From assembly GCA_017466405.1 (NCBI GenBank), contig JAFTUF010000015.1, positions 1 through 39,953 of the forward strand: a stretch of DNA of 39,953 nt, written 5' to 3'. The position numbers were made by a program, and so were the translations under genes. Shown here piece after piece: positions 1,076 through 29,163 of the stretch. Below the pieces are notes generated by a model. It was not told the origin of the DNA, did not search any database, and saw only the letters and a list, made by a program, of their open reading frames with translations. Source of the DNA: Bacteroidales bacterium (lineage in GTDB: Bacteria; Bacteroidota; Bacteroidia; Bacteroidales; F082). How positions within the stretch are numbered: the first letter of the stretch is position 1; the number at the start of each line of letters is the position of its first letter.

Positions 1076-1155
1076 TTTAAAGTTTAAAGTTTATAGTTCA
1101 GAGTTAATAGTTTATAGTAGTTTTAAAGTTGAGAGTTGGAAGTTTGTAAGTTTAT
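1076..1155. repeat. Heptamer array, family A (copy 1)
   Basis: Degenerate tandem 7-mers of the type TTTAAAG, TTTATAG, TTCAGAG, TTAATAG, followed by TAG and TTGAGAG, TTGGAAG units. Nearly the same array recurs at 1855-1924, 4078-4150 and, inverted, 11716-11788. This copy has one extra TTTATAG unit compared with the copy at 1855. It has stop codons in every frame and occurs only between genes. Confidence 0.85.
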
Positions 1156-1163
1156 TTTGTAGA

Positions 1164-1178
1164 GATGTCATTGACATC
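1164..1178. repeat. Small palindrome (family F) after the MNT gene
   Basis: GATGTC-ATT-GACATC is a perfect 6-bp inverted repeat preceded by TTGTAGA. The same TTGTAGAGA-type lead-in begins the hairpins at 12259 and, in inverse orientation, ends the one at 25562, so this looks like a short member of one palindromic repeat family. It lies just downstream of the MNT stop codon and could also act on transcript ends. Confidence 0.5.
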
Positions 1179-1188
1179 AACTTTTATA

Positions 1189-1485
1189 TCAAATTTTAAC
1201 TCCACACTTTAATATTTCGTCAAACAAAGGTGATGGATGTTGTCTATTGACAAGAACTGGTTCTATGTACGAACTGACCTTTCGGGTTGCACGCCACAAT
1301 TTGGTCATAACAGATAATACATCTTCTGTGATATTGTCAACGACAACAGCAATATCAATATCGCTTTGTTCTGTTGCACAATCCTTACTGTAAGAACCAT
1401 ACATATACACATCAACAACAGTCATCTGGTCACAAATAACCTCCTTATATTGGCGTGCTAATTTTAAAGCTTGTCCTTTATCCAT
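1189..1485 (-). CDS. MNT-type nucleotidyltransferase domain protein
   Basis: A 98-residue minimal nucleotidyltransferase of the MNT class. The signature is GSYSK at residues 30-34 followed by SDIDIAVV at 41-48, giving the GS...DxD metal-binding pattern. In HEPN/MNT modules, MNT proteins act as antitoxins, and some AMPylate the partner HEPN ribonuclease. The longer frame to 1524 would start with TTG inside the HEPN gene; I chose the ATG at 1485, which has a purine-rich AAAGAAG upstream and overlaps the HEPN gene by 22 bp. The overlap and the order HEPN then MNT suggest translational coupling. Whether the pair is an active toxin-antitoxin system cannot be told from sequence. Confidence 0.85.
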   Translation of the reverse strand: MDKGQALKLARQYKEVICDQMTVVDVYMYGSYSKDCATEQSDIDIAVVVDNITEDVLSVMTKLWRATRKVSSYIEPVLVNRQHPSPLFDEILKCGVKI

Positions 1486-1847
1486 ACGAATATCTTCTTT
1501 GTTGTTTCTACAATATAACGACAACGTTCTGCTGTTAATGTTTTAAATAACTCATCTTTATACGACGGATATCGTGCCTCTATATTGAGAGGCATCATCA
1601 TATCTATGAAGTCCAGTTGCTCCTCAGTCATCAATTTATCCAAACCACACCCTTCATTTAACCTTATCAAATTATGAATATAAGGTGGTTCTGTGGTTAA
1701 ATTAGCATTCCAATAAGCCTTAATACCCTTTTCTATAACTTGATGACACATAAACCCCACATACAACCATCTCTTTGTCTCGAACATAGCCTCTGCAGTA
1801 ACAAGATCATATTCTGCCAAATCAATCCAATAACGTACTTTATCCAT
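1464..1847 (-). CDS. HEPN domain protein (partner of MNT)
   Basis: A 127-residue, mostly helical HEPN domain protein (PF05168 type). Recognisable landmarks are the helix FMCHQVIEKGIKA at residues 32-44, YIHNL at 56-60, and ARYPSY at 91-96, which is typical of the group next to MNT genes. Active HEPN ribonuclease toxins carry an Rx4-6H motif; I do not see one, so toxicity is uncertain and it may be a binding partner instead. An in-frame TTG three codons upstream is possible, but the ATG at 1847 is preferred. It is the upstream gene of the HEPN/MNT pair and follows rfbB by 148 bases that are largely a family A repeat array. No promoter box is obvious, so read-through from rfbB is possible. Confidence 0.83.
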   Translation of the reverse strand: MDKVRYWIDLAEYDLVTAEAMFETKRWLYVGFMCHQVIEKGIKAYWNANLTTEPPYIHNLIRLNEGCGLDKLMTEEQLDFIDMMMPLNIEARYPSYKDELFKTLTAERCRYIVETTKKIFVWIKDKL

Positions 1848-1854
1848 GTTCTTC

Positions 1855-1924
1855 AAAGTTTAAAGTTCAGAGTTAATAGTTTATAGTAGTTCTAAAGTTG
1901 AGAGTTGGAAGTTTATAAGTTTAT
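1855..1924. repeat. Heptamer array, family A (copy 2)
   Basis: Almost identical to the array at 1076-1155 but lacking one TTTATAG heptamer near its start. It lies directly upstream of the HEPN start codon. Confidence 0.85.
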
Positions 1925-1995
1925 CTTGTGGAAACGCATCAGAATTTCAATATTATATAAGAAAACGAGACACATCTTTTGTTTAAAGTCGGGGT

Positions 1996-3180
1996 CTATA
2001 AATTTTCAGTTTTCAACTTTCCATTCGAATGGTACATCTCCTCATAATATTTCTCATACTCGCCACTTGTGACGTTATCCATCCATTCCTGGTTGTCTAA
2101 GTACCAGCGGACTGTCTTTTCAATACCTTCTTCAAACTGCAACGATGGTTCCCAGCATAATTCCTTCTGTAACTTAGTAGAGTCTATTGCATAACGTGCA
2201 TCGTGACCTAATCTGTCGGTGACGTATGTGATAAGATCTAATGATGTGCCTTCTGGGTTACCAAGGATTCTGTCAACCGTTTTAATCATCACCTTAATCA
2301 AGTCGATGTTTTTCCATTCGTTGAAACCACCGATATTGTATGTCTCCGCCACTTTTCCTTCATGGAAAATCAAATCTATCGCTCTTGCGTGGTCTTCAAC
2401 ATATAACCAGTCGCGGACGTTCTCACCCTTACCATAAACCGGCAACGGCTTACGATGACGTATATTATTAATAAATAAAGGTATTAACTTTTCAGGGAAC
2501 TGATACGGTCCGTAATTGTTAGAACAGTTTGTCACTATTGTCGGCATTCCGTATGTGTCGTGATATGCTCTTACGAAATGGTCGCTACTTGCCTTAGCTG
2601 CTGAATATGGTGAGTGAGGATTGTATTTTGTTGTTTCGTAGAAGAACTCATCACCGTAAGCTTTATGACCTTCAGAAGAAGCCACAGTCTTAAATGGAGG
2701 TTCTATTCCTTCTGGATGATTCATTGCGAGAGCACCATAGACTTCGTCGGTGGAAATATGATAGAATCGGCATTGAGCCGCGAGCTGTGAGCCGTGAGCT
2801 ACTTGGTACGGAACTGGTTGACTTTCCCAGTACAATTTCGCTGCTTGAAGCAGACTTAAAGTTCCCATTACGTTTGTCTTTGCAAAGGTGAATGGGTCTT
2901 TTATACTTCTATCGACATGCGACTCAGCTGCGAGGTGAATGATTCCATCAACTTTTTCGTCTTGCATAAGCTGATAGAAATTCTCGAAATCGCAGATGTC
3001 CATCTTCACGAACTTGTAATTAGGCTTGTCTTCTATATCCTTGAGATTTGCCAAATTACCAGCGTAAGTGAGTTTGTCTAAGTTGATTATGTTATATTCT
3101 GGATATTTGTTTACGAATAATCTTACGACATGGTTTCCAATGAAACCTGCGCCACCTGTTATAACTATACTACGTCTCAT
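1996..3180 (-). CDS. rfbB: dTDP-glucose 4,6-dehydratase
   Basis: Converts dTDP-glucose to dTDP-4-keto-6-deoxyglucose, the second step towards dTDP-rhamnose and related sugars for LPS or capsule. An extended SDR enzyme: NAD-binding GGAGFIG at residues 9-15, active-site T144-D145-E146, and YSAAK with Tyr192 and Lys196. The stretch 150-180 (AMNHPEGIEPPF) matches the longer Bacteroidota form. At residues 120-138 there is an insertion of roughly eight residues compared with the E. coli enzyme; codons 127-136 (VAHGSQLAAQ) are encoded exactly by a family C heptamer array. The site is a loop just before the conserved HISTDEVYG strand, so activity is probably kept. It lies 10 bases after rfbA, in one operon with it. 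rfbC and rfbD are not in this window. Confidence 0.96.
   Translation of the reverse strand: MRRSIVITGGAGFIGNHVVRLFVNKYPEYNIINLDKLTYAGNLANLKDIEDKPNYKFVKMDICDFENFYQLMQDEKVDGIIHLAAESHVDRSIKDPFTFAKTNVMGTLSLLQAAKLYWESQPVPYQVAHGSQLAAQCRFYHISTDEVYGALAMNHPEGIEPPFKTVASSEGHKAYGDEFFYETTKYNPHSPYSAAKASSDHFVRAYHDTYGMPTIVTNCSNNYGPYQFPEKLIPLFINNIRHRKPLPVYGKGENVRDWLYVEDHARAIDLIFHEGKVAETYNIGGFNEWKNIDLIKVMIKTVDRILGNPEGTSLDLITYVTDRLGHDARYAIDSTKLQKELCWEPSLQFEEGIEKTVRWYLDNQEWMDNVTSGEYEKYYEEMYHSNGKLKTENL
2774..2802. repeat. Heptamer array, family C, inside rfbB
   Basis: On the coding (minus) strand four 7-mers follow each other: AGCTCAC, GGCTCAC, AGCTCGC, GGCTCAA. They encode rfbB residues 127-136. The same repeat type is found inside the metal-efflux adaptor gene at 12615-12645, on its coding strand too. 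Confidence 0.85.
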
Positions 3181-3190
3181 CGTTGTAAAA

Positions 3191-4066
3191 TTATTCGTTT
3201 ATCAATTTAAGTAAGTACTGACCATACTGATTTTTTATCATCGGTTGTGCCAGTTCTTGCATTTTCTCTTTTGAAATCCAACCTTGTGTATATGCTATCT
3301 CTTCCAAACAAGCGACTTTAAGTCCGGTACGTTTTTCTAGGACTTCGATATATGTTGAAGCTTCAGCGAGAGAGTCGTGAGTTCCTGTGTCGAGCCATGC
3401 GAATCCGCGGTCGAAGACCTGCACTTTGAGTTCTCCACTGTTGAGGAAAGCCTGATTCACTGATGTTATCTCGAGTTCACCTCTTGCCGAAGGTTTTACA
3501 TTCTTTGCAATCTCAACGACTTTGTTAGGGTAGAAGTAAAGCCCTACAACAGCATAGTTAGACTTTGGATTCTTAGGTTTCTCTTCTATAGATACACAAT
3601 TGCCGTCTTTGTCAAACTCAGCCACGCCATAACGCTCTGGATCATTGACCCAATAACCGAAGACAGTAGCCTTGTTATTCTGCTCAGCATCAGCAACTGC
3701 ATTTTTTAACTGTGTTGATAAGCCTGCGCCTTGGAAAATATTATCACCTAAGACAAGACAAGCGCAATCGTCACCGATAAATTCTTCGCCAATGATGAAA
3801 GCCTGTGCGAGACCATCTGGTGAAGGCTGTTCTGCATAACTGAAGTTAACGCCATAATCGGAGCCATCGCCGAGCAAGCGCTTGAAACTTGGAAGATCCT
3901 GCGGTGTAGATATAATCAATATATCACGTATCCCAGCCATCATCAAGACCGAAATCGGATAATATACCATAGGTTTATCGAAAATAGGAAGCAACTGCTT
4001 GCTGATACCCTTTGTTATCGGGTAAAGACGAGTGCCAGAACCACCTGCTAAAACGATACCTTTCAT
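3191..4066 (-). CDS. rfbA: Glucose-1-phosphate thymidylyltransferase
   Basis: Makes dTDP-glucose from dTTP and glucose-1-phosphate, feeding RfbB. The 291-residue length is standard. The nucleotide-binding signature GGSGTRLYP is at residues 8-16 with [15 protein letters not shown] at 19-33. The sugar-binding region with [19 protein letters not shown] and the C-terminal ARGELEIT are intact. The gene directly precedes rfbB (10-base gap). A family A heptamer array fills the space to the AbiEii-like gene upstream. Cytoplasmic enzyme. Confidence 0.97.
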
Positions 4067-4077
4067 GATATATGATT

Positions 4078-4150
4078 TTTAAAGTTTAAAGTTCAGAGTT
4101 AAAAGTTTAGAGTAGTTTGAAAGTTGAGAGTTGGAAGTTTATAAGTTTAT
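4078..4150. repeat. Heptamer array, family A (copy 3)
   Basis: Same order of 7-mers as copies 1 and 2 (TTTAAAG, TTCAGAG, TTAAAAG, TTTAGAG, then TTGAGAG, TTGGAAG), with scattered substitutions. Lies between the AbiEii-like gene and rfbA. Confidence 0.85.
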
Positions 4151-4161
4151 TTGAATTGAAG

Positions 4162-4770
4162 TCAACAAACTTGTATCTCTCTTAAAATTCTATTTTTAAC
4201 ATCTTTCCACGATTTTTCTTTTATCATAAATGGTAGAGGATCACGCTCCGCATCGTCAAAATACACCAGACTTTTCATTGCCATAAACCGTGACGCCTCT
4301 GAATATTTCATTTCGTAGAAACTTAATATCTCATCTAAAGAAAATATATCTAACAAAAATGCTAAATCTATAAAGTCCTTTTTGGTTCCTCTCCCTATGA
4401 TTGCTGTTATCTTCATCGCTGCAATATCCTTAATATCAGCAAGTCTAAGATTATCTTCAACAAACATTGGTTCCATCCAAGGATATTTGTAATTTACAAT
4501 ATCTAATTTAACTCCGTTCAGCTGATAAACATGAATATTCTTACTTTCTTTAAGAATTTTCAAATCGCCCAAATCAGATAACTCATCAACCAATTCATAA
4601 TGCTCACAATTTATTGCACCAAACAAATCAATATCAATAGATTTACGATGACCGATTTGTAATGCTAAAGAAGTTCCTCCCACCAATCGTGTTTCTGATA
4701 AAAGCGGGATTTCTTGCAACTGCTTCAATAATTCCAATGTTGCTGGTTCGATTGTCTCGTAATGTAACAT
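4162..4770 (-). CDS. AbiEii/AbiGii-like nucleotidyltransferase
   Basis: A 202-residue protein of the AbiEii/AbiGii toxin family (PF08843 type). The N-terminus MLHYETIEPATLELL and the signature GGTSLALQ (residues 31-38) followed by HRKSIDIDLF (41-50) are characteristic of this nucleotidyltransferase fold. Family members act as type IV toxins or abortive-infection factors; some transfer nucleotides to tRNA. The start codon lies inside the 3' end of the upstream DUF6922-like gene (46-base overlap), which argues for coupled translation and for a two-gene module. It has no classical AbiEi antitoxin neighbour; the DUF6922-like protein takes that position, as is common in Bacteroidota. Confidence 0.85.
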   Translation of the reverse strand: MLHYETIEPATLELLKQLQEIPLLSETRLVGGTSLALQIGHRKSIDIDLFGAINCEHYELVDELSDLGDLKILKESKNIHVYQLNGVKLDIVNYKYPWMEPMFVEDNLRLADIKDIAAMKITAIIGRGTKKDFIDLAFLLDIFSLDEILSFYEMKYSEASRFMAMKSLVYFDDAERDPLPFMIKEKSWKDVKNRILREIQVC

Positions 4771-5012: not shown

Positions 5013-5054
5013 ATTAAAAAAATTATCTGTTTTCAGCCTATTGCTCAACAAAAC

Positions 5055-5083
5055 CTGTTGACTGTTGTCCGTTGTCTGTTGAC
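5055..5083. repeat. Heptamer array, family B (copy 1)
   Basis: On the minus strand: GTCAACA, GACAACG, GACAACA, GTCAACA. The same 7-mer type recurs at 12462, 19116 and 29126. Here it sits in the leader of the DUF6922-like gene. Confidence 0.8.
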
Positions 5084-5191
5084 ATTTACTTACAGCTTCG
5101 CCCTTTCACTCACATGAAAAAATATATTATATTGTAAATCAATATTTTCTCCTATGTAAGTTAAGACTATATTTCCTCAAAATGCTTATGG

Positions 5192-5199
5192 CAAATATA
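5192..5199 (-). promoter_or_regulatory. Candidate -7 box upstream of DUF6922/AbiEii/rfb genes
   Basis: Minus-strand TATATTTG followed by CC, fitting the Bacteroidota TAnnTTTG consensus; 180 bases before the DUF6922 ATG. Confidence 0.4.
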
Positions 5200-5375
5200 T
5201 GAAATTTTATCCCCAAATGAAAATCTTACAAGAAAAATCTTTCTAAAAAAGGAACTCTCTATGTAATATATTATGCATACTCAAGGTATCGCTATAATAT
5301 GATTTTCTCAATGTGTTGATAATTAGCACTATATAAAACACTTAATAAATAACAATATTAACCCTAAACAACTTA

Positions 5376-6933: not shown

Positions 6934-7389
6934 ATGGCAAATACATTAGTTAAAATCAATGTTCATATCATATTCCATGTCAAAAACTATGGAGTGAAAA
7001 TGAGGAATGAAGATTTGGGAAGAATTTTCTCATATATTGGAGGTATTATCAATGGCTCAGGGGGCATGCCAATTGAGATTGGAGGAATAGAAAGTCATGT
7101 TCATATCCTTACGACCTTACCAAAAAACACTTCTCTCTCAGATTTTGTTAGAATTATCAAGTCAGATAGCAGTCGATGGATAAAAACAATAAACAAACAT
7201 TACAACAAATTTTCTTGGCAAGAAGGATATGGAGCATTTTCTGTAAGCCCGGCATTAATTGATAAGACAGGTCGTTATATTCAGAATCAATCCGAACATC
7301 ATAAAACAATGACATTTCGTGATGAATATAAATCATTTCTGAAAGCATATGGGATAGAATGTGATGAAAGATATATCTTTGACGACTGA
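6934..7389 (+). CDS. IS200/REP-associated tyrosine transposase (Y1)
   Basis: A 151-residue single-domain Y1 transposase (PF01797). The HUH motif is H55-V56-H57 in ESHVHIL; the nucleophile is Tyr115 with Gln119 in YIQNQ (Y-x3-Q, a metal ligand in this family); WQEGYGAFSVS at 95-105 is typical. Enzymes of this type cut and join single-stranded DNA at hairpins. There is no tnpB accessory gene. The flanks are inverted copies of a REP-like palindrome rather than plain IS ends, which resembles REP-associated (RAYT) arrangements. The frame is complete, so the gene is probably functional. Confidence 0.9.
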   Translation: MANTLVKINVHIIFHVKNYGVKMRNEDLGRIFSYIGGIINGSGGMPIEIGGIESHVHILTTLPKNTSLSDFVRIIKSDSSRWIKTINKHYNKFSWQEGYGAFSVSPALIDKTGRYIQNQSEHHKTMTFRDEYKSFLKAYGIECDERYIFDD

Positions 7390-9830: not shown

Positions 9831-9833
9831 TTA

Positions 9834-9919
9834 AGTTACTGAGATGCTAAGATACTAAGATACTAAGTTCACAGTAACTCAGTATCTCAGCAACTCAGCA
9901 ACTCAGCAACTCAGTAACT
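9834..9919. repeat. Octamer array (family D) forming a hairpin at convergent ends
   Basis: Units such as TACTGAGA, TGCTAAGA, TACTAAGA on the left are followed by the inverse type (AACTCAGC, AACTCAGT) on the right, so the array folds back on itself with a loop near 9870. It fills the whole gap between two convergent genes and may stop transcription from both sides. Confidence 0.75.
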
Positions 9920-9920
9920 C

Positions 9921-11479: not shown

Positions 11480-11620
11480 TAAAAAACTTCCTGTCACATT
11501 CGAATGGAAGAAATTCCATGCCAAGTTCTCAACACCAAAAAATAAAAAAACTATTAGCGTCAATTCGTGTCCATTCTCGGACAGAAATAATCTGTGTCAA
11601 TCTGTGGTCAAATCCTCCAA
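11480..11620. other. Gene-free stretch
   Basis: No credible gene. It contains short similar words (CAATTCGTGTCC, CAATCTGTGG) reminiscent of other decayed tandem repeats, followed by the period-11 array. Confidence 0.5.
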
Positions 11621-11665
11621 CCAAGTCCATACCAAGTCCGTATCAAGTCCATACCAAGTCCGTAC
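11621..11665. repeat. Period-11 tandem array (family E)
   Basis: Four units alternate: CCAAGTCCATA, CCAAGTCCGTA, TCAAGTCCATA, CCAAGTCCGTA. Confidence 0.85.
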
Positions 11666-11715: not shown

Positions 11716-11788
11716 ATAAACTCTCAAACTTCCAACTCTAAACTTTGAAACTACTATAAACTATTAACTCTAAACTATAAACTTTTTT
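11716..11788. repeat. Heptamer array, family A (copy 4, inverted)
   Basis: The reverse complement reads TTTATAG, TTTAGAG, TTAATAG, TTTATAG and so on, in the same order as the copies at 1076, 1855 and 4078. Its end adjoins the -7 box of the metal-efflux operon. Confidence 0.85.
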
Positions 11789-11819: not shown

Positions 11820-12242
11820 ATGTTAAAGAAAATTAGTCAGATATCACTTTCTTTAGCTTGCATGATTCTTATGCTTCATGCAATAATACCGCATCATCAT
11901 CACCCCGATAAACCAATATGCATCAATAACTTAAATCATAACGACTGTCACAACCATACTCATTGCTGCGACTTCGGACAGCATGACGACCACAATCACG
12001 ATTATGATAAAAGTCATTGTATTATTGACGATTATTTCGCTCCGAAAGACAATAACGAGATAAAAATTTCTTTAGACTCGGAGACTTTGTTTTCTCACTT
12101 CAACCTCATTTTCGATTCCTTAACGACCATTTTAACCCTTGAGGAAGAAGGAATCAACCTCCGACGACCTGACCGAACCTTAATTTATAAAAACCCTCTC
12201 GCAATCTCTAATATCGGATTACGAGCCCCTCCAACTTGCTGA
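11820..12242 (+). CDS. His-rich small exported protein (DUF6769-like), metal-binding candidate
   Basis: A 140-residue protein with an N-terminal hydrophobic segment (about 5-24: ISQISLSLACMILMLHAI) and then a dense cluster of His, Cys and Asp (PHHHHPD, HNHTHCCDFGQHDDHNHDYD) at about 28-70, well suited to bind Zn, Cu or similar ions in the periplasm. The C-terminus ends GLRAPPTC, a pattern I associate with the Bacteroidota family DUF6769, often next to RND metal-efflux genes. It is the first gene of the operon leading to the CusB/CusA/TolC-like genes. A role as periplasmic metal chaperone or buffer is inferred from composition and position. Confidence 0.7.
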   Translation: MLKKISQISLSLACMILMLHAIIPHHHHPDKPICINNLNHNDCHNHTHCCDFGQHDDHNHDYDKSHCIIDDYFAPKDNNEIKISLDSETLFSHFNLIFDSLTTILTLEEEGINLRRPDRTLIYKNPLAISNIGLRAPPTC

Positions 12243-12404: not shown

Positions 12405-13691
12405 ATGAAAAAAATATTAATAATCGCAGCTATCATCGTAGGATTGATTTCCTATAGTTGTGTCAACAGACAACAGTCAACAGTCAACAGTCATGAACAT
12501 TCAGCAACTTGCAATCACGACCATGACCACAATCACGACCATTCAACTCACAGTCATGAGCATTCTGCAACTTGCGACCATGACCACAATCATGACCATA
12601 ACCACGACCACTCTGCTCACAGCTCACAGCCTGCAGCTCACAGCCACGATCACGAAGGCGGAATAACATTCGGCTTAGACCAACAAGCAAAGATTGATTT
12701 TGAAGTAGTTGAAGTAGTGAGCGAACCTCTTTACCAAATCATCAGAACTTCAGCTCAGATTCTTCCTTCTCAAGAAAGCGAAAAGATATTGACAGCTACA
12801 ACAAGCGGCATTGTTTCTTTCGAGAACAAAGACATCGTCGAAGGTTTGGAAGTCAAATCAGGACAGACTTTGTTCAGCATCGACAACGATAACATGGCTG
12901 ACGGTAGCCTCGCAGTTCGTCGCCAAGAGATTGAAGCTGAATATGAAAAGGCAAAAGCAGAATACGAACGTAAACAGTCTCTCGCAGAAGATAAACTCAT
13001 CTCTCAAAGCGAATTGTTAGATGCAAAAACTGAATATCTCAAAGCTGAGAAACATTACCAAAATATGATTCAAAACTATCCTGAAGGCAAGACTCTCCAC
13101 AGAGCAACTATCTCAGGTTCAATAAAAGACATCTTGGTTCCTAACAACTCTTACGTAGAAGCCGGTCAACCTATCATGACTTTAGCTAAAAACGACAGAC
13201 TCTACGTCCGCGCCGACTTACAATCAAAATATTATCCTGTCTTGAAAGACATCAAAACCGCTAATATCAAGACTCCTAACGATGGCAAAGTCTATTCTTT
13301 AAACGATTTATCAGGTCGTCTCTTATCTTACGGTAAGACTACTGATGTCAGCAACCCTTTGATTCCTATCACTTTCGAGATTAAGAATAACGGCATTCTT
13401 CTTCCAGGTTCTTTTGTAGAGATTTTCATCACTGCCGAAAGCAACGAAATGGGTATCATGTTACCTAACAGCGCTATCGTAGAGGAAATGGGAATCTACT
13501 GCGTCTTCGTTCAGACTTGCACCGATTCTTTCGAGAAACGCATCATCACCAAAGGCGTCACCGACGGTAACAACACACAGATTCTCAAAGGCGTGAAAGC
13601 AGGCGAAAGAGTCGTAAGCAAAGGCGCTGTCAATGTTAAGTTGGCACAAGGTTCAGCAGCATTAGACCCTCATGCAGGTCACGTTCATTGA
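12405..13691 (+). CDS. RND metal-efflux periplasmic adaptor, His-rich (CusB/CzcB-like)
   Basis: Membrane-fusion protein linking the inner-membrane pump to the TolC-like channel. 428 residues; the lipoprotein signal ends ISYSC with Cys19. Residues 30-84 are a metal-binding stretch with two copies of SHEHSATC(N/D)HDH followed by HNHDH-type repeats. The adaptor core follows: barrel-sandwich strands around 110-160, a helical hairpin (about 165-215), then beta-barrel and membrane-proximal domains. Unusually, residues 23-29 (QQSTVNS) are exactly the translation of family B heptamers and 70-80 (SAHSSQPAAHS) that of family C heptamers, so the His-rich arm is bordered by repeat-derived sequence. Part of the operon 11820-17988; gap to the pump gene is 15 bases. 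Confidence 0.92.
   Translation: MKKILIIAAIIVGLISYSCVNRQQSTVNSHEHSATCNHDHDHNHDHSTHSHEHSATCDHDHNHDHNHDHSAHSSQPAAHSHDHEGGITFGLDQQAKIDFEVVEVVSEPLYQIIRTSAQILPSQESEKILTATTSGIVSFENKDIVEGLEVKSGQTLFSIDNDNMADGSLAVRRQEIEAEYEKAKAEYERKQSLAEDKLISQSELLDAKTEYLKAEKHYQNMIQNYPEGKTLHRATISGSIKDILVPNNSYVEAGQPIMTLAKNDRLYVRADLQSKYYPVLKDIKTANIKTPNDGKVYSLNDLSGRLLSYGKTTDVSNPLIPITFEIKNNGILLPGSFVEIFITAESNEMGIMLPNSAIVEEMGIYCVFVQTCTDSFEKRIITKGVTDGNNTQILKGVKAGERVVSKGAVNVKLAQGSAALDPHAGHVH
12462..12492. repeat. Heptamer array, family B, inside the adaptor gene
   Basis: GTCAACA, GACAACA, GTCAACA, GTCAACA, GTC: four perfect or near-perfect 7-mers on the coding strand, encoding residues around RQQSTVNS. Confidence 0.88.
12615..12645. 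repeat. Heptamer array, family C, inside the adaptor gene
   Basis: GCTCACA, GCTCACA, GCCTGCA, GCTCACA, GCC on the coding strand; encodes AHSSQPAAHS, nearly the same peptide as the rfbB insertion. Confidence 0.88.
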
Positions 13692-16809: not shown

Positions 16810-17988
16810 ATGAAAAAAATTATTTTAACTATATCATTCTTGTTGTGCGTCAATGTGATATTTGCTCAAAACGCATATCAAAATGTATTGGATACCATTG
16901 AAGCTAACAGCACAATTTTGTCTGCTCATCATAAAAAAATGGAAGCTGACAAATCTACGAATAACGCATATTCTTTATTCGAGAATCCTGAGATTGAAGC
17001 TGGCTATAAGTTTGGTTCAGAAGGAAGTAATAAGGTTGAGATGGGTGTCTCTCAAGAGATTGCATTTCCTACTTATTACACTAACGAAAGTAAGATCATC
17101 AAGATTAACGATAACATCATCGACATTCAATATCAGATTGATAGAATGGGTGTCTTGACAGAAGTACAAAATATCTGTACGGAACTCGTTTTCTGCAAGA
17201 TGAAGATTAAACTTTACGAACAGAACTACGACAATGCTGTTAAGATTGCCGACGCTTATCAGAAGATGATGGAACTTGGTGAAGCTAATATCTTGGATTA
17301 TAACAAATCGAAGATGAATCTCGCTAACGCTAAGAATAATTACGACTTAGAACTTATTCATCAAGAAAACCTTATGGCAAGTCTGAAGACTCTCAACGGT
17401 GGCAAAGACATCGACTTCCAATATGAAGATTATGCTATCGTAAGTCTTCCTGAGAATTTCGATGAATGGTATTCTGTAGTCGAGCAGAGTAATCCTGTCT
17501 TTGAACAGATGCGTCAACAGATTGCTTTGAATCAGCAACAGGTGAAGAAGAGCAAGGCTGAATGGTTCCCATCGCTTAACATCGGTTATGGAGCAGAAAT
17601 CGGTAAAGACGAGTCGGAACATGGACCATCAATTGGATTGTCGCTTCCATTATGGCACAACAAAGGCAGTGTGAAGAGCGCGAAATTACAGGCAGAAGCA
17701 GCAGAGTCGATGCTCATGAACGAAAAAGAAGTTACTTACAATTACCTCTACAGTCTTTTTGCAAAGGTAAAAGCCTTACAAAATAATGTAGGCGCTCTTG
17801 CTGAATCAATGCAACAATTCGACAGTCAGGCTTTGCTTTTGAAATCATTTGAACAAGGAGAAATGAACCTCGTTGATTATCTGTTGGAAGTGGAATATTA
17901 TCAAAACGCCGTTTTGGAATTATATTCTGCTCAATATGAGATGAACGCTTCAATGATAGAACTCAAAAGCTACGAAGGACTTTATTAA
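16810..17988 (+). CDS. TolC-family outer-membrane channel
   Basis: Outer-membrane factor of the tripartite metal exporter, 392 residues. Signal peptide with cleavage likely after VIFA|Q (about residue 19). Long amphipathic helices with QNYDNAVKIADAYQKMMELGEANILDYNKSK-like composition and the matching half near 330-370 (FEQGEMNLVDYLLEVEYYQNA) reflect the internal duplication of the OEP fold (PF02321). Last gene of the metal operon, followed immediately by an octamer array. Confidence 0.92.
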   Translation: MKKIILTISFLLCVNVIFAQNAYQNVLDTIEANSTILSAHHKKMEADKSTNNAYSLFENPEIEAGYKFGSEGSNKVEMGVSQEIAFPTYYTNESKIIKINDNIIDIQYQIDRMGVLTEVQNICTELVFCKMKIKLYEQNYDNAVKIADAYQKMMELGEANILDYNKSKMNLANAKNNYDLELIHQENLMASLKTLNGGKDIDFQYEDYAIVSLPENFDEWYSVVEQSNPVFEQMRQQIALNQQQVKKSKAEWFPSLNIGYGAEIGKDESEHGPSIGLSLPLWHNKGSVKSAKLQAEAAESMLMNEKEVTYNYLYSLFAKVKALQNNVGALAESMQQFDSQALLLKSFEQGEMNLVDYLLEVEYYQNAVLELYSAQYEMNASMIELKSYEGLY

Positions 17989-18089
17989 GTTACTAAGTTG
18001 CTGAGTTGCTAAGTTGCTGAGTTGCTGAGTTACTGAGTTGCTGAGTTACTAAGTTAGTGAGTTGATAAGACACTGAGTCGCTGAGGTGA
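17989..18089. repeat. Octamer array (family D) at convergent ends
   Basis: Twelve consecutive 8-mers of the type TGCTGAGT / TACTAAGT keep the period throughout. It begins right after the stop codon of the TolC-like gene. Confidence 0.85.
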
Positions 18090-18103
18090 CTTGGTGTCTT
18101 ATC
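18064..18103. terminator. Hairpin, probable bidirectional terminator
   Basis: Perfect 10-bp stem GATAAGACAC / GTGTCTTATC with an inner AGTC / GACT stem. It lies between two convergent genes and includes the stop codon of the DUF2148 gene. The last units of the octamer array form its left arm. The T-run after it is short (TTTT), so termination strength is uncertain. Confidence 0.6.
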
Positions 18104-18747: not shown

Positions 18748-19116
18748 ATGGCATTACACAATGAAATTGGATCGATGGGCGAGAGAATTGCCGTCGATTT
18801 TCTTCTCGAAAAGAACTATCAGATTTTAGATACTAACTGGGTCTGCGGACATAAAGAAGTCGATATCATCGCAAAAGACGGCGACACTATTGTCTTTGTG
18901 GAAGTTAAGACGAGAAAAAGCAACTATCTCGTCGAACCGGAAGCTACCGTCGATGTGTATAAGCGAAGACATCTGATATGGGCAGCAAACAGTTATGTTA
19001 ACAGATTCCAATACGACAACGACGTGCGTTTCGATATAATATCAATTGTCATCGGTAACAACGACGAAAAAAGGATAGAACACATTGAAGATGCATTCTA
19101 TCCTTCCTTAAAATAG
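18748..19116 (+). CDS. yraN: YraN family (UPF0102) nuclease-fold protein
   Basis: A 122-residue protein of the YraN/UPF0102 family, which has a Holliday-junction-resolvase-like PD-(D/E)XK fold. Visible landmarks: GERIAVDFL with Glu12, KEVDIIA with Asp39, and VEVKTR with Glu52 and Lys54, the expected acidic-acidic-Lys core. The biological function is not settled; DNA processing is assumed. An ATG at 18741 is out of frame. The last 15 codons contain a perfect inverted repeat that, on the other strand, looks like a terminator for metG. Confidence 0.93.
   Translation: MALHNEIGSMGERIAVDFLLEKNYQILDTNWVCGHKEVDIIAKDGDTIVFVEVKTRKSNYLVEPEATVDVYKRRHLIWAANSYVNRFQYDNDVRFDIISIVIGNNDEKRIEHIEDAFYPSLK
19067..19105 (-). 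terminator. Probable metG terminator lying inside the yraN coding end
   Basis: AAGGATAGAA (19071-19080) and TTCTATCCTT (19096-19105) form a perfect 10-bp stem with a 15-base loop. Read on the minus strand the stem is followed by TTTT, 49 bases after the metG stop codon. The bases also encode the YraN C-terminus. Confidence 0.6.
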
Positions 19117-19132
19117 TCAACAGACAACAGTC
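19116..19132. repeat. Heptamer remnant, family B (copy 3)
   Basis: GTCAACA, GACAACA, GTC starting at the last base of the yraN stop codon. Confidence 0.7.
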
Positions 19133-22358: not shown

Positions 22359-22390
22359 AGTTTCATTATTTAGTTTTTACCACTTTTTTT

Positions 22391-22408
22391 GGTGGTACTA
22401 TTACCACC
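22391..22408. promoter_or_regulatory. Palindromic operator candidate for the Fic gene
   Basis: GGTGGTA-CTAT-TACCACC is a perfect 7-bp inverted repeat; a partial additional half-site TACCAC lies at 22378-22383. It is about 10 bases downstream of the -7 box at 22419-22426, where a bound repressor would block transcription. Confidence 0.55.
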
Positions 22409-22418
22409 AAATTGCCTA

Positions 22419-22426
22419 CAAATATA
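22419..22426 (-). promoter_or_regulatory. -7 box of the Fic gene
   Basis: Minus-strand TATATTTG followed by TAGG, 61 bases before the ATG at 22358. Confidence 0.5.
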
Positions 22427-22519
22427 CAAATAATTATCCGAAATAAGATAAATGTTTATAATTATTTATGGGGTATAAATTTCAATAGTCATATTTCATA
22501 AATTTGGGATTAGTGAGTG

Positions 22520-22527
22520 CAAAGATA
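22520..22527 (-). promoter_or_regulatory. Alternative upstream -7 box for the Fic gene
   Basis: Minus-strand TATCTTTG followed by CACT. It lies between the terminator of the upstream gene and the Fic gene. Confidence 0.4.
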
Positions 22528-22540
22528 ATAATATTCTTAT

Positions 22541-22579
22541 AAAAAAAGCTGTGACCATCAAATTATTAATGGCCACAGC
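22541..22579 (-). terminator. Terminator of the secreted-protein pair
   Basis: On the minus strand GCTGTGGCCAT / ATGGTCACAGC (11 pairs, one G-T) is followed by seven T; 30 bases after the stop codon at 22609. Confidence 0.85.
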
Positions 22580-22608
22580 AAAAACAAAGTGTCTAGGATT
22601 TATGGAGA

Positions 22609-23895
22609 TTATTTTACGATGATCTTTTTGGTGACGACTTTTCCGTCTTCTAACAGACATTTAACGAAGTATAATCCAGAGGTGAAGTCTGCGACAGAGA
22701 CGCTCTCAGTTTTTCCAGATGCTTTTCTCGAGTTAACGACATTCTTACCCAAGATATCGAAAATCTCGTATGAGACAATGTCGCCGCTTATCTTTATGTA
22801 ATCGCTTGTAGGATTAGGAAATACAAGAACAGTTTCTTCTTCATATGGCTGGTTAATATTGAGAGGGAAGTAATTATTCAAGATAGGGAAACCGTTGTTG
22901 GAATTTTGTGCGTCATATTGCCAGACATTTGTGTTATTGTTGAGCAATGTCACGAATTCGTGGGAACGCATAAATTCAGCAGTCTCTGCTTCTCCGTATT
23001 CATTAGAACTCTCAATACAAATCTCGAGGTAATAGCAGTTTTCTATTGAGGTGTCTGATTTCGTTTTACCAACAAGGCCGCCCATAAATTCTGTCTCCTC
23101 CGATGTGTTGATATTTCCAACGTTATAGCAATTCTTCATGATAGCACTTGCTTTAATCAGATATCCAACAACGCCTCCAACAAGCTCGCCTCCGGTCAGA
23201 TTGCCGACGTTGTAACAATTTTCGATACTTTCAAGGCAATAAGCTGCAATGCCTCCTACTATAAGGTCGCCTTTTATGTCACCAAGATTGACGCTGTTTT
23301 TTATTGAATTTGCGCGTACCATAAGACCAGCTGCACATATAGTAGATTCAATATCGACATTAGACACACAATTTTCCAAGTTGCCTCCCATAGCAGAAAA
23401 ACCTGCACATTCTTTATCATCAATGTTAATGTAACCTTCAATGTGAAGATTTTTTATCAGAGAATTTTCCGGCATACAACTGAAGAAGGCTGCCTCCGAT
23501 TCATACCATAGTGATTTTTCATTATTTATCTCTGAGTTCTCGTCGATGTAGAGTCCTGTTATCTTGTGATAATTGCCGTCGAGAGTGCCGCCGAATAACT
23601 TGTTTCCGCCTGTCATACTTAAGCCAGCAGCTATTGGAATCCACTGATTGTCTGCGTTCCCATTAAGGTCGATGTCGGTTGTCAACTTGAAATATTTTCC
23701 CTCGGTCCATTCATCATAGTCGTAATTTATGAGATATACGAGCCATGCAAGGTTTTGGGCGTTTTCAATAAGATATGGATCTGTTTCTGTCCCAGAGCCT
23801 TTTGTTATGGCTTCGCGTTTTCCATCCCATACGCTCTGTGCTGTCAAATTCATTCCTAAGAGAATAAAAGTCAAGATATATGTAAACTTTTTCAT
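22609..23895 (-). CDS. Secreted GLUG-like repeat protein with T9SS sorting domain
   Basis: 428 residues. Signal peptide MKKFTYILTFILLGMNLTAQ (cleavage after about 19). The middle part has GLUG-like units: GGIAAYCLESIENCYNVGNL, GGVVGYL...MKNCYNVGNI and MGGLVGKTKSDTSIENCYYL at about 210-300, predicted to form a beta-solenoid as in some adhesins. From residue 354 follows a type A T9SS C-terminal domain: VFPNPTSDYIKI, then YEIFDILGKNV, ADFTSGLYFVK, and a final VVTKKIIVK. Exported and attached to the surface or released through T9SS. It follows the 502-residue secreted protein gene with a 4-base gap, so both are co-transcribed. Ligand unknown. Confidence 0.88.
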   Translation of the reverse strand: MKKFTYILTFILLGMNLTAQSVWDGKREAITKGSGTETDPYLIENAQNLAWLVYLINYDYDEWTEGKYFKLTTDIDLNGNADNQWIPIAAGLSMTGGNKLFGGTLDGNYHKITGLYIDENSEINNEKSLWYESEAAFFSCMPENSLIKNLHIEGYINIDDKECAGFSAMGGNLENCVSNVDIESTICAAGLMVRANSIKNSVNLGDIKGDLIVGGIAAYCLESIENCYNVGNLTGGELVGGVVGYLIKASAIMKNCYNVGNINTSEETEFMGGLVGKTKSDTSIENCYYLEICIESSNEYGEAETAEFMRSHEFVTLLNNNTNVWQYDAQNSNNGFPILNNYFPLNINQPYEEETVLVFPNPTSDYIKISGDIVSYEIFDILGKNVVNSRKASGKTESVSVADFTSGLYFVKCLLEDGKVVTKKIIVK

Positions 23896-23899
23896 GGTC

Positions 23900-25408
23900 T
23901 TACTTATTTAAATTGTTAATAAAATATTCTTTGATATAGTCCGCCCATTCATTCATCTCGTCTCTGTCGAATTTCTCGGATGGCCAATAAGTTACAAAAG
24001 CCTTGTCGATGATGTTGACTTCACCGCTTTCGAAAGTGAAAGGTCCAGATGATGCAAGTCCGCGTCTGTCGCCGCTCTCATTAGGAGTGCCGTTGTTGGC
24101 AGATTCCTCGTTCCATGGAAATTCTGTGTTAGGATTTACGCCTCCCGTACCCCAATTATATGGGTCTGAGTTGTCAGGATACATAAACTTACACGGAATA
24201 TTAGATACTCCAGGAGTTCCTTCAACGCCAATGCCTCCGTAATAAATATTATCTCCGTTTCTCCAGAGTCCTTTGAGAACATTATAATATTCATCGACTT
24301 TTTCAGGGTCTCCATTGATAGTAGCACTATTATTGTTATATACAAAACTGCACATTCCCAAACGCTCATTATCTATGACGCCGTCGCCATAACCTAATCC
24401 GTTTATGCTTTCGTCAACGATTTGAAAACCGTTCTCGTCAAACTTCGGATTGTCGATGTCGTCGGCATCGGCATTAGCGCCGCCAAGAAACATGACAATC
24501 TGTGCTGGAGGATTGAGACCGTAAGAACCAGGTTCTCCAATGCCGTCCATATCGGAAGAGTTGTAGCAATAGAAGTAACCTTTTTCTACATTACATCCTA
24601 CGTAATCGTCGTAGCCGTACCCTATGTCAAGGTCGTTCCAGAGACCTACATATACGTTGTTGTAGTCGTTAGATGAGCGATTGTGAATCCAGTAACGCAT
24701 AAAAAGAGTGTTGTTGAGTTTTTCGTCGTCAGGAGCGTTGAAACCGTACAACATACAGTGTATCTCCAAACCGAATGCCTTGCCTCCGGATTCGGTATGA
24801 ACGTTATAGTTATCATTAAAGATGCAATAAAGAGCCATATCGCCGAGGATGTCAGGATAGTCGCCATTGGCAGGATTGTAGAAACCGTCACCGTCGGTGT
24901 CGATGAAAGGAGCGAGATTGGCGGCATAACCGTCTTCAACATTGCCATGAGCAGGCCATGTGAGAATGTCTTCAGGTATGTCGGTACACGTGTTATTAAT
25001 AATGGCGTCGATGTCGGAACGTTTTATTTTCCACACGTGATGATAGTCCATGACGCTGTAGATGTCGTTAGTGGCGTCAGTGGTACGCAAAGGTCCTGAC
25101 CAGAAATCCTCGCCCACTTGATTGTAACGTACAGCAGAGCAATGAATGTTGTTGTCATCGTCCAAACCTGCAATCCATAATGAGTTGCTGAAAATTGTTG
25201 AGCAATCTCCATCGGCAGGAACAGCGTAGTTGTTGTAATAAGTAGGTCCGAAACCAGGGTGTTGGACAATCATTCTAAAGAAGTTGCCGGTACCATACAG
25301 GTTTGTCTTGATGTTGTTGATGTCGATAGATGCTTCTGGATGTATCTGCGCTTTCAATGTAGGCACTAGCAGAAGCATCAAGCTTAGGATTAAGAATTTT
25401 TGTTTCAT
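23900..25408 (-). CDS. Secreted protein of unknown function (502 residues)
   Basis: Signal peptide MKQKFLILSLMLLLVPTLKAQ (cleavage near 20). The mature part is rich in Asn, Asp, Gly and Tyr with a Ca-binding-like FIDTDGDGFYNPANGDYPD at about 167-185 and a C-terminal RRGLASSGPFTFESGEVNIID segment. I recognise the general type (Bacteroidota exported proteins that usually carry a T9SS tail), but not a function. No T9SS C-terminal domain is present: the protein ends ADYIKEYFINNLNK. The next gene in the operon has one, so the two may work as a pair. Start chosen at the ATG with the signal peptide; promoter is clear. Confidence 0.8.
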   Translation of the reverse strand: MKQKFLILSLMLLLVPTLKAQIHPEASIDINNIKTNLYGTGNFFRMIVQHPGFGPTYYNNYAVPADGDCSTIFSNSLWIAGLDDDNNIHCSAVRYNQVGEDFWSGPLRTTDATNDIYSVMDYHHVWKIKRSDIDAIINNTCTDIPEDILTWPAHGNVEDGYAANLAPFIDTDGDGFYNPANGDYPDILGDMALYCIFNDNYNVHTESGGKAFGLEIHCMLYGFNAPDDEKLNNTLFMRYWIHNRSSNDYNNVYVGLWNDLDIGYGYDDYVGCNVEKGYFYCYNSSDMDGIGEPGSYGLNPPAQIVMFLGGANADADDIDNPKFDENGFQIVDESINGLGYGDGVIDNERLGMCSFVYNNNSATINGDPEKVDEYYNVLKGLWRNGDNIYYGGIGVEGTPGVSNIPCKFMYPDNSDPYNWGTGGVNPNTEFPWNEESANNGTPNESGDRRGLASSGPFTFESGEVNIIDKAFVTYWPSEKFDRDEMNEWADYIKEYFINNLNK

Positions 25409-25435
25409 GACGTAATGTTTTAAAAGTTTTACGTC
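25409..25435. promoter_or_regulatory. Inverted repeat in the leader of the secreted-protein operon
   Basis: GACGTAA and TTACGTC (perfect, 13-base spacer) lie between the -7 box and the start codon, the left arm touching the ATG. It can form a leader hairpin or be a protein-binding site. Confidence 0.45.
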
Positions 25436-25436
25436 G

Positions 25437-25467
25437 CAAAAATATAATCGTAAAATCCTGAATGCAA
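25437..25467 (-). promoter_or_regulatory. Promoter of the secreted-protein operon (-33/-7)
   Basis: Minus-strand TTG at 25465-25467, 20 bases, TATTTTTG at 25437-25444: a full match to the Bacteroidota promoter layout. Confidence 0.7.
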
Positions 25468-25561
25468 GTAATTAATCTATGCATTTTTATGCATAAATAA
25501 GCGAAGATGTTGAGCAATAGAAAGTTGTTATGGAAAACGCATAAAAACGCAAACCCTCATC

Positions 25562-25617
25562 AGACGTATCAATTACATATTGTTTATTTTTTTGAGTAAT
25601 TGGCACGTCTCTACATA
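25562..25617. repeat. Palindromic family F element
   Basis: AGACGTATCAATTAC (25562-25576) pairs with GTAATTGGCACGTCT (25596-25610), two mismatches, and ends CTACATAAA. Its first half matches the hairpin at 12265 (AGACGTATCAAT). Confidence 0.65.
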
Positions 25618-25640
25618 AACTTTAAAACTCTAAACTTTTT
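25617..25640. repeat. Short family A heptamer piece, inverted
   Basis: ACTTTAAAACTCTAAACTT, reverse of TTTAGAG-TTTTAAAG words, directly before the -7 box of the S46 peptidase gene. Confidence 0.6.
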
Positions 25641-25643
25641 TCT

Positions 25644-25651
25644 TATCTTTG
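25644..25651 (+). promoter_or_regulatory. -7 box of the S46 peptidase gene
   Basis: TATCTTTG followed by CAG, 32 bases before the chosen ATG at 25684; this also shows that the longer TTG-started frame from 25600 is not translated. Confidence 0.6.
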
Positions 25652-25683
25652 CAGAAATTGAAATGAATCAAATTTTTAGTAAT

Positions 25684-27843: not shown

Positions 27844-27855
27844 ATGTTGTATGAA

Positions 27856-27887
27856 TTTGAGAACCTCAGAATCTGAGAATTCGAGAA
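27856..27887. repeat. Octamer array (family G)
   Basis: Four 8-mers: TTTGAGAA, CCTCAGAA, TCTGAGAA, TTCGAGAA, just after the S46 peptidase gene. Confidence 0.7.
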
Positions 27888-27920
27888 AATAATATAATCT
27901 TAAAACTAAAAAATTAAATT

Positions 27921-28289
27921 ATGAAAAAGCTATTGACATTTTCGCTTTTGTTAGCCTTGGTGTTAGGCATGACAAGTTGTTCTCTCCATGATGGAATGAC
28001 ACACAATTTAAATCAAAGTTCAACAAACGTGGTTTTATCACAAGACAATTATAAAATCGTTCAGAAGGTAAGAGGTGAGGCTCAAGCTGATTACTTCTTC
28101 TACCTCGGAGGTTTTCGTAAAAAAGGTTTGATAGAAGAAGCTAGAGCTGATATGTTAGAGAATGCAAATTTGATAGGTTCTTCGAGGGCAGTCATCAACG
28201 AGACTGTTGAGACAAGTTTATCGACATTCTGTGGAATTTATTCTTACGTCAAGGTAACTGTTTCGGCTTACGTTGTTGAGTTTGAATAA
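27921..28289 (+). CDS. Small lipoprotein (DUF6567-like)
   Basis: 122 residues with lipobox GMTSC (Cys20). The core GEAQADYFFYLGGFRKKGLIEEARADMLENANLIGSSRA-like pattern (about 52-90), then VTVSAYVVEF at the end, matches a common Bacteroidota lipoprotein family, DUF6567 as I recall it. Function unknown. It lies 77 bases after the S46 gene with an octamer array between, and a strong hairpin follows. Confidence 0.8.
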   Translation: MKKLLTFSLLLALVLGMTSCSLHDGMTHNLNQSSTNVVLSQDNYKIVQKVRGEAQADYFFYLGGFRKKGLIEEARADMLENANLIGSSRAVINETVETSLSTFCGIYSYVKVTVSAYVVEFE

Positions 28290-28303
28290 TTCATGTTTGA
28301 AAA

Positions 28304-28330
28304 AGAGGCTGCCGATAATCGACAGCCTCT
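28304..28330. terminator. Bidirectional terminator
   Basis: AGAGGCTGCCGAT / ATCGACAGCCTCT, 13-bp stem with one mismatch and a 1-2 base turn, between two convergent genes. On the minus strand it is followed by TTTTT, so it is a typical terminator for the fab/etf operon; on the plus strand the T-run is missing. Confidence 0.85.
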
Positions 28331-28365
28331 ACAAACTAATATAAAATGAAAAAGGAAATTTTTTC

Positions 28366-29112
28366 TTAACAGTTCATGCCACCGCAGCAGTGGATAACTT
28401 GTCCTGATACGTATCTCGACATGTCGCTTGCCAAGAATAATGCTGTATCGGCCACGTCTTCTGGAGTGCCGCCTCTTCTCAAAGGAATTTGTTTCAACCA
28501 GCCTTCCTTAGCCTCTTCTGGGATTTGATTTGTCATCTCAGTAATGATGAAACCTGGAGCTATACAGTTGGCTCTGATGTTACGAGAACCCATTTCTTTA
28601 GCTATAGATTTTGCCAAACCAATCATACCAGCTTTTGATGCTGAGTAGTTAGCTTGTCCGGCGTTGCCAGAGACACCAACTACAGATGCCATGTTGATGA
28701 TACTTCCTGAGCGTTGACGTGCCATGATAGGAACTACAGCGTGGATGAAGTTGAAAGCAGATTTCAAGTTGACGGTGATAACATCGTCCCATTGTTTTTC
28801 TGTCATTCTCATCATCAGAGTGTCGCGTGTGATACCAGCGTTGTTAACCAGAACGTCGATGCTTCCGAAGTCTTGATGTATTTGTTTCACTGTATTTTCT
28901 ACGTCTTCGAAGTTAGCAGCGTTTGATAAGTAACCGATGACTTTTACGCCAAGAGCTTGTAATTCAGCTTCAGTAGCTCTGATACTTTCTTCGTTTAAAT
29001 CGGTGAAAGCGATGTTGCAACCTTCTTCTGCAAAACGTTTTGCTATGGCTTTGCCAATTCCTCTTGCTGCACCTGTGATGACAGCGGTTTTATTTTCCAA
29101 TAATAATTTCAT
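28366..29112 (-). CDS. fabG: 3-oxoacyl-ACP reductase
   Basis: Reduces 3-oxoacyl-ACP to 3-hydroxyacyl-ACP with NADPH. Start at the ATG at 29112 gives 248 residues, the usual FabG length; the 13 codons upstream in the same frame come from a heptamer array. SDR motifs: TGAARGIG at 13-20, NNAG at 90-93, catalytic Asn114, Ser143, Tyr156 and Lys160 (YSASK). Last gene of the fab/etf operon, 94 bases after the acyl-CoA dehydrogenase gene, with a family B array in the gap. The C-terminus ends with an unusual Cys-rich HCCGGMNC. Confidence 0.96.
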   Translation of the reverse strand: MKLLLENKTAVITGAARGIGKAIAKRFAEEGCNIAFTDLNEESIRATEAELQALGVKVIGYLSNAANFEDVENTVKQIHQDFGSIDVLVNNAGITRDTLMMRMTEKQWDDVITVNLKSAFNFIHAVVPIMARQRSGSIINMASVVGVSGNAGQANYSASKAGMIGLAKSIAKEMGSRNIRANCIAPGFIITEMTNQIPEEAKEGWLKQIPLRRGGTPEDVADTALFLASDMSRYVSGQVIHCCGGMNC

Positions 29113-29125
29113 AACATTAATTTTA

Positions 29126-29163
29126 GTCAACGGACAACAGTCAACAGACAACGGACTTTGTCC
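29126..29163. repeat. Heptamer array, family B (copy 4)
   Basis: GTCAACG, GACAACA, GTCAACA, GACAACG, GAC on the plus strand, between the acyl-CoA dehydrogenase gene and fabG. Confidence 0.85.

Follow-up and report, generated by a model that had tools for sequence, protein, structure and literature searches.

Degenerate 7- and 8-base tandem arrays in a Bacteroidales genome and their possible spread as small dispersed blocks

What are the degenerate short tandem arrays that recur along a 39,953-nucleotide contig of a Bacteroidales bacterium (lineage F082; GenBank assembly GCA_017466405.1, contig JAFTUF010000015.1, our C21; hereafter the window, that is, the whole stretch analysed), and how did they reach so many places? 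An earlier note, made from the letters of the window, described a genome-wide system of strict 7-, 8- or 11-base arrays, named 16 places and likened the system to the short tandemly repeated repetitive (STRR) heptamers of heterocystous cyanobacteria, which have period 7 and occur genome-wide. We tentatively explain the arrays, with a confidence just short of even, as several families of very small non-autonomous dispersed elements with a period-7 or period-8 tandem body, copied as blocks, amplified in few species and re-homogenised in place. Each family would spread by block copying into tolerant sites (intergenic DNA and protein loops), and in genes only frame-neutral, stop-free insertions would survive. 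Resident arrays would then be overwritten or homogenised by gene conversion from other copies together with slippage, and place and period would thereby outlast the unit.

Arrays in the window and across the genome

Window arrays were scored with Tandem Repeats Finder and by self-match at lags 7, 8 and 11 (+1 for a match, -1.5 for a mismatch). Ten of the 16 named places are clearly above chance (score of at least 12), two (2774 and 27856) are weak and four (5493, 12615, 19116 and 25617) are near or below chance on the lag score. At the same threshold the window holds seven arrays of period 7, three of period 8, one of period 11 and one of period 9, whereas 60 dinucleotide shuffles gave means of 0, 0.017 and 0 for periods 7, 8 and 11; the arrays thus do not have the frequency of shuffled sequence.

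The assembly comprises 2.43 Mb in 69 contigs, of which we examined 440 kb: the window and twenty stretches (400 kb) drawn, not at random, from contigs with matches to the octamer family D described below. At a score of at least 14 this sample contains 52 arrays of period 7 and 46 of period 8, so that the system is not restricted to the window and the claim that degenerate arrays with units of 7 and 8 bases run through a whole Bacteroidales genome stands. At a score of at least 18 the 400 kb contain 17 and 27 such arrays, and two shuffles gave none. Other periods yielded seven arrays (period 6), eleven (period 12) and between none and two for each of the periods 4, 5, 9, 10, 11, 13 and 15 (two each for 9, 10 and 11); the 22 arrays of period 14 were read as a harmonic. 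Period 11, formerly counted as part of the system, was rejected as a third repeat system because of this rarity. Besides four units of CCAAGTCCRTA type in the window (family E, 11620..11665, + strand, score 22.5), the sample holds five units of TTCGTACCARG type at L009:344-456, close to a degenerate heptamer run.

At a score of at least 12, predicted intergenic DNA (38.8 of the 440 kb) contains 68 of the 106 arrays of period 7 or 8, a density about 18 times that of coding DNA; genes were greedy picks of open reading frames (ORFs) of at least 80 amino acids, so that the coding or intergenic label is mistaken in some cases (as for one class I copy of family B, below, called coding). The nearest named genomes are the Bacteroidales metagenome-assembled genome (MAG) RGIG4235 from roe deer colon (G040, L029; MetG 98% identical) and MAG SIG107, labelled Lentimicrobiaceae (G041, L030; MetG 96% identical). 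In this genome and in both of these, the self-match of intergenic DNA has maxima at lags 7 and 8 and at the multiples of each; G023 has its maximum at 7, and the outside set gives a flat curve. Per Mb (score of at least 14), we counted 118 period-7 and 105 period-8 arrays in this genome, 96 and 64 in G040 and 289 and 110 in G041, the densities of these two being biased upward by the choice of contigs with matches; 18 other genomes of the genus gave 79 and 19 (25 and six arrays).

The likeness to STRR heptamers is fair as a resemblance: 7-base tandem units are dispersed genome-wide above chance here too, but period 7 does not stand alone (46 period-8 beside 52 period-7 arrays). We regard the arrays as a variant of heptameric repeats, the STRR heptamers being compared by resemblance only. 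A literature search, largely confined to freely accessible papers, gave no account of the present system among the entries listed. The window, searched against Rfam at the gathering threshold, gave no match, and no tRNA was found in it; a known RNA family was rejected on this ground.

A first alternative is ordinary replication slippage in steps preferably of 7 (or 8) bases, a mechanism proposed for heptamer repeats generally: an array would begin with two units, lengthen, shorten and decay, and selection would remove those that break the frame. We hold it to be a serious competitor, though less likely than not. Period 7 leads in the outside set too (11 of 25 intergenic arrays over the eight periods counted), and PMC4679880, citing Mrazek 2007, gives heptamers as the commonest of the long-unit classes in most genomes, with a polymerase contact of 7 nt as the proposed cause. 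The cause of the heptamer lead among bacterial long-unit simple repeats is not settled in the literature consulted.

Family B and other families as candidate blocks

Family B (CAACAGW) is nearly always a four-unit element with a short tail. With one mismatch allowed per unit, its runs of two, three, four and five units number 23, 5, 28 and 1 in this genome and 18, 0, 18 and 0 in G040. Five third-order Markov replicates gave 23-30 twos (this genome) and 13-22 (G040), at most one three and no four, so that the twos match chance counts. Profiles built from the 45 four-unit copies of the two genomes fall into class II, GT(CAACAGW)4CTTTGTCC (30 copies, 22 of them in predicted coding DNA), and class I, CAAAGATAAnAAAAGA(CAACAGA)4TTTTTTT (15 copies). 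The class II tail agrees with CWTYGT at five or six of six positions in 20 of the 30 copies, against 24 of 283 lone CAACAGA controls; such a shared non-periodic tail suggests that B spreads as a block. Class I reads, in gene direction, A-tract, four units, T-tract and then a TATCTTTG box, which we take to be the Bacteroidetes -7 element.

Predicted coding DNA holds 23 of the 45 four-unit copies, 20 of them in coding orientation (frames 11, 6 and 3). When three species are pooled, 25 of the 30 runs of three to five units in coding DNA have that orientation. The opposite orientation brings TGA stops wherever a GTC unit stands. Four copies or remnants were named in the window: four heptamers of CAACAGA type in intergenic DNA (5055..5083, - strand, score 12.5); four heptamers in frame in a CusB-like ORF (12464..12493 in 12405-13691, + strand, score 20.5), encoding VNRQQSTVNS; four GWCAACA heptamers followed by a GGACTTTGTCC tail (29126..29156, + strand, score 12); and a two-unit remnant between convergent genes (19112..19130, + strand, score 7). 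Two copies of B folded no better than shuffles (z -0.76 and +1.5), and RNA structure was rejected as the basis of B on these two. No terminal inverted repeat was seen by eye in the profile of the 45 copies.

The distribution of B is narrow. Among 60 genomes of the genus, the pattern with at most two mismatches occurs at 263 places in this genome, 120 in G045, 97 in G065, 91 in G071, 28 in G009, 12 in G058, one each in G008 and G056 and none in the other 52, so that eight genomes carry it, two of them by a single match; overlapping matches are counted repeatedly in longer arrays, as in G071. A reversed-pattern control gave 87 in this genome and 40, 25, 8, 7 and 3 in G045, G065, G071, G009 and G058, counts that are high because the reversed pattern is itself nearly periodic. 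The DapB proteins of G071, G045, G009 and G058 are closest to that of this genome (75-77% identity; next 67%), which suggests that these B-bearing genomes may form one clade with it.

Taken together, an almost constant unit number, a common tail and a restricted occurrence speak for the dispersal of whole B blocks. The same three features count against slippage, fours being well above threes and twos at chance, as do the occurrence of same-unit B arrays in many different genes and the frame breaks that single-unit steps would cause in essential genes. The picture from exact runs is less sharp: two, three and four units number 11, 6 and 20 in this genome, where nine of the 17 shorter runs lie within four-unit arrays, and 8, 2 and 8 in G040, where nine of ten do. 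This check slightly lowers our preferred explanation and slightly raises slippage.

It also slightly lowers a broader idea, which we consider unlikely, that bacteria in general have a process which writes blocks of about four units, each of 7 or 8 bases and of any sequence, and which brings blocks already in place into line with the dialect that the species uses at the time. A quantum of four as a general rule was rejected, since the family-blind histogram supports it nowhere outside B; the quantum is shown for B only because that histogram peaks at five in every set, and this in turn leaves room for slippage elsewhere. If the broader idea were true, conserved protein loops and promoters would be passive recording sites where the dialect of each species is readable, and the four-unit preference of the heptamers of Xanthomonas and Nostoc would be a mark of the writing process instead of G-quadruplex folding. 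According to PMC4692102, those heptamers (GGGAATC, GGGGAYT) favour four units, ascribed there to G-quadruplex formation. Family B matches this preference in two species (this genome and G040) but has no G-tracts; several families coexist here, octamers are nearly as common, and arrays stand in frame in essential genes, points of difference from what that source describes. Among the 12 units most frequent in this genome (AACAGAC, AACTCAGC and others), none has a G-tract of at least three, and we rejected the G-quadruplex account on this ground.

Family A had been taken for a strict 7-mer array; it is instead a dispersed element of about 75 bp, with a register break, ACTACTMTA, common to 11 of 12 listed copies. 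Five of the eight AATTAGG arrays of G040 end in AATTATT, four of these after AGTTAGG AATTAGG. The common ending and the shared register break point to block copying. A Bacteroidales counterpart is BrickBuilt of Porphyromonas gingivalis, a miniature inverted-repeat transposable element described in PMC4596501 with 19 always intergenic copies. It is likewise a dispersed element with a tandem-repeat body and promoter elements, but differs in its 23-nt unit and in a leader and tail with small inverted ends.

Family D consists of runs of three to 14 octamers, often in facing pairs. A family D query matched 54 places in this genome; among 39 relatives (23 of the same genus, 16 of the same order; G040 and G041 were outside this search) it matched a single place in a single genome. 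One of the 54, at 17982..18101 (+ strand, score 46.5; place 17989 of the earlier note), is a single array between convergent genes; its start coincides with the stop codon of a weakly TolC-like gene, and its other end is a hairpin whose 16-pair stem is unbroken. The other D place of the window, named as one array at 9834, proved to be two arrays face to face (9832..9920: 9839-9867 and an inverted partner at 9872-9920, scores 16 and 31), again between convergent genes. The whole stretches are predicted to fold at -47 kcal/mol (z -6.0) and -29.7 kcal/mol (z -5.3), respectively, which makes a terminator-like role between convergent genes plausible; octamer arrays so placed may form terminator-like hairpins.

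Places and units in neighbouring species

We compared arrays for which an orthologous interval could be located. At a score of at least 10, the interval also holds an array in G041 for 10/10 coding and 10/11 intergenic arrays (controls 11/400 and 200/400) and in G040 for 8/10 and 8/14 (controls 8/400 and 22/400). At a score of at least 13, the figures are 8/10 and 10/11 in G041 (controls 8/400 and 137/400) and 7/10 for coding arrays in G040 (control 2/400). The G041 intervals differ in mean length from their controls (coding 189 against 122, intergenic 170 against 301). The unit was identical at only 6 of 21 orthologous places in G041, among them the family A element at 4065..4150, and at 7 of 24 in G040. 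Retained place with exchanged unit argues for overwriting or homogenisation, and is not easily explained by slippage.

Examples come from the window itself. The junction of the B remnant at 19112..19130 has, in L029, AGTCTATG-type octamers instead of heptamers; that of the B copy at 29126..29156 has AATTAGG heptamers; and that of a weak octamer array of TCTGAGAA type (family G, 27856..27887, + strand, score 10) has an octamer run of another kind.

The same exchange is seen inside genes. Predicted genes of this genome contain 33 arrays, a few in doubtful ORFs and some in frame in conserved proteins. Three arrays each lie in DapB (identified by matches to 23 solved chains) and in a 1,917-residue protein, and others in the CusB-like protein of the window and in genes that are, presumably and by motif, RimO-like, TatD-like, MenG-like, two other methyltransferases and a U32-type peptidase. 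Among 32 DapB proteins compared, seven species have loop inserts at one place and 25 have none. The loop DNA, read by eye (for 14 of the 32 sequences), is octameric in all seven insert-bearing species, and the units differ: AGTCACCA and ATTCTCAG here, AGTCACCA in G040, ATTCTCAG type in G041, GGAATYCT in G071, AGGAATTC in G045 and G009 and AGACTCAG type in G058. In a methyltransferase loop, this genome, G040, G071, G058 and G009 carry four or five heptamers of CAACAGA, CCAAAAG or CCAACAG type; G045 combines four heptamers with octamers, G041 has octamers together with a palindrome, and G023 has none of these. At the U32-type loop, this genome and G045 carry heptamers, G040 a heptamer run accompanied by palindromes, and G009 octamers with a near-identical word, GACAACAA; G072, G050 and G057 have none of these (the rows of G058 and G041 were empty and left out of the count). 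Each of the three loops carries arrays that differ among sister species at a single position, and in the more distant species examined that position is without an array. Unlike units at the same sites in sister species, including frame-limited essential genes, make the slippage and G-quadruplex accounts directly testable, and loops of conserved proteins in these bacteria would be partly written by repeat DNA.

In G040, the RimO-like gene (L110:19640-19876) shares an octamer array with this genome and carries, next to it, an additional array of AATTAGG heptamers, and a protein that we take by motif to be MurB-like (L109:7661-7695) carries a degenerate four-unit B array in a loop. The palindromic elements of Rickettsia are also short repeats in frame in protein genes; they are palindromic and longer, and have no 7- or 8-nt tandem body.

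Another set of heptamers is the direct repeats TAACTGA of Beggiatoaceae, some cyanobacteria and five Bacteroidetes (PMC4679880). As described there, they resemble the present arrays in being intergenic heptamer arrays, often just before start codons, with a patchy distribution; the change of unit between sister species at identical sites sets the present arrays apart from that description. TAACTGA is not among the commonest units listed for any of our genome sets.

Several results weigh against copying of whole blocks with later homogenisation, and some of them speak for slippage. The family-blind peak at five units for period 7 occurs in the outside set as well; eight of the 17 exact two- and three-unit B runs of this genome lie outside four-unit arrays; B in G071 is often longer than four units, as judged from overlapping matches; and the unit number of family D varies. 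The units within a B array are only slightly more homogeneous than in shuffles (z 2.6), and neighbouring units resemble each other no more than end units do (6.01 against 6.16 of 7). By our test 8 of 24 orthologous intervals in G040 have no array, and at a score of at least 13 only 4 of 14 intergenic ones retain one (control 13/400). Four of 14 clean indels between the syntenic stretches compared contained arrays: an octamer difference of exactly 48 bases (six units, the kind of step expected from slippage), a gain of 61 bases of family A, a difference of 141 bases that takes in a repetitive extragenic palindromic (REP) sequence as well, and one inside a B array. None of the 14 was a clean B insertion against an empty site, and no target-site duplication for B was found among them. 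Finally, no mobilising enzyme was found for the arrays among Y1 transposases and reverse transcriptases, the two enzymes examined, so that the suggestion of a linked enzyme gained no support from either. Slippage probably contributes too.

Promoters, palindromes and neighbouring genes

Some arrays are linked to promoters. Arrays near TAnnTTTG boxes number 8 of 107 here (2.1 expected), 14 of 59 in G040 (1.2) and 3 of 62 in G041 (1.1), an enrichment that is overstated, the expectation being taken from box density over all DNA. Eight genes were compared; where the orthologous gene lay in the stretches examined, the promoter-linked array upstream of it is kept with its geometry in 4/4 cases in G040 and 2/2 in G041, where the units are others (TTTCGTC and GTAGACT, four units each). 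These observations could be read as selected binding sites, with promoter-proximal four-unit arrays binding a regulator or RNA polymerase and the rest being by-products. We find this improbable: most arrays are not beside a TAnnTTTG box, and about half of the four-unit B copies (the 23 of 45 above) are in predicted coding sequence. Under block copying, promoters would be a secondary use suggested by position, four-unit arrays beside the -7 box holding promoter geometry fixed.

A further alternative is that the arrays are carried by REP sequences and their REP-associated tyrosine (RAYT, Y1) transposases. REP-like palindromes touch many class I arrays, and 13 of 44 intergenic arrays are near a REP-like site in G040 (5.5 expected); in this genome and in G041 the counts are 10 of 68 (8.1) and 1 of 35 (0.6). 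Y1 matches number two here, two in G003 and four in G007, and in the last two (samples of 80 kb and 20 kb) arrays are few or none; by eye, Y1 counts and array density do not correspond. With the association weak in this genome and the Y1 counts unrelated, we rejected REP and RAYT as the carrier and consider it very improbable. GTAG-type REP sequences (PMC3733652) are single palindromes and not arrays, although REP-like palindromes share permissive sites with arrays here. GTAG-tagged palindrome-like sites are present in intergenic DNA, and one of the two Y1 matches of this genome is a 151-residue IS200-like transposase of RAYT size at 6934-7389 of the window. Within the genus, 5 of 8 genomes rich in arrays and 6 of 12 others have reverse transcriptase genes, and reverse transcriptase was therefore rejected as the linked enzyme.

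Family A was named at six places of the window. Read on the - strand, the element at 1076..1140 (heptamer AACTMTA, score 21) stops just short of an ATG near 1073, judged by eye to be the start codon, and a REP-like GTAGAGATGTCATTGACATC lies nearby at 1159-1178. Two more - strand elements lie immediately 5' of a - strand ORF (1852..1924, score 14; named at 1855) and between two - strand genes (4065..4150, score 14.5; named at 4078). On the + strand, the element at 11717..11783 (named at 11716; score 14 at 11753-11783) is directly upstream of a promoter-like TATCTTTGC and of ORF 11820-12242, and a short remnant at 25617..25650 (score 7.5) is also upstream of a promoter-like TATCTTTGC. The named place 5493, with a score of 5, is near or below chance.

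Three named places lie inside genes. Both 12462 (the in-frame B array) and 12615 are within the CusB-like ORF 12405-13691, the latter as a weak GCTCACA heptamer run (12615..12644, + strand, lag score 9, Tandem Repeats Finder 39). Place 2774 is inside a GDP-mannose dehydratase-like gene, as a weak TGAGCYG heptamer run (family C, 2774..2800, + strand, score 10.5) that is likely unrelated.

Beside its heptamer arrays, the CusB-like protein has a long His/Asp-rich N-terminal stretch (12405-12720) from an imperfect 69-base tandem duplication, and the neighbouring ORF 11820-12242 is likewise His-rich. An AbiEii-like nucleotidyl transferase gene (4162-4770, Pfam 7.5e-14) has a family A element on one side and, further off on the other, a B array. 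A Fic-type protein (21288-25625) matches 'mobile mystery protein B', and the stretch 22573-25625 beside it is missing at the aligned place in L029. Finally, the 738-residue protein at 7614-9830 has a weak, short match to the Mac-1 family (1.6e-8).

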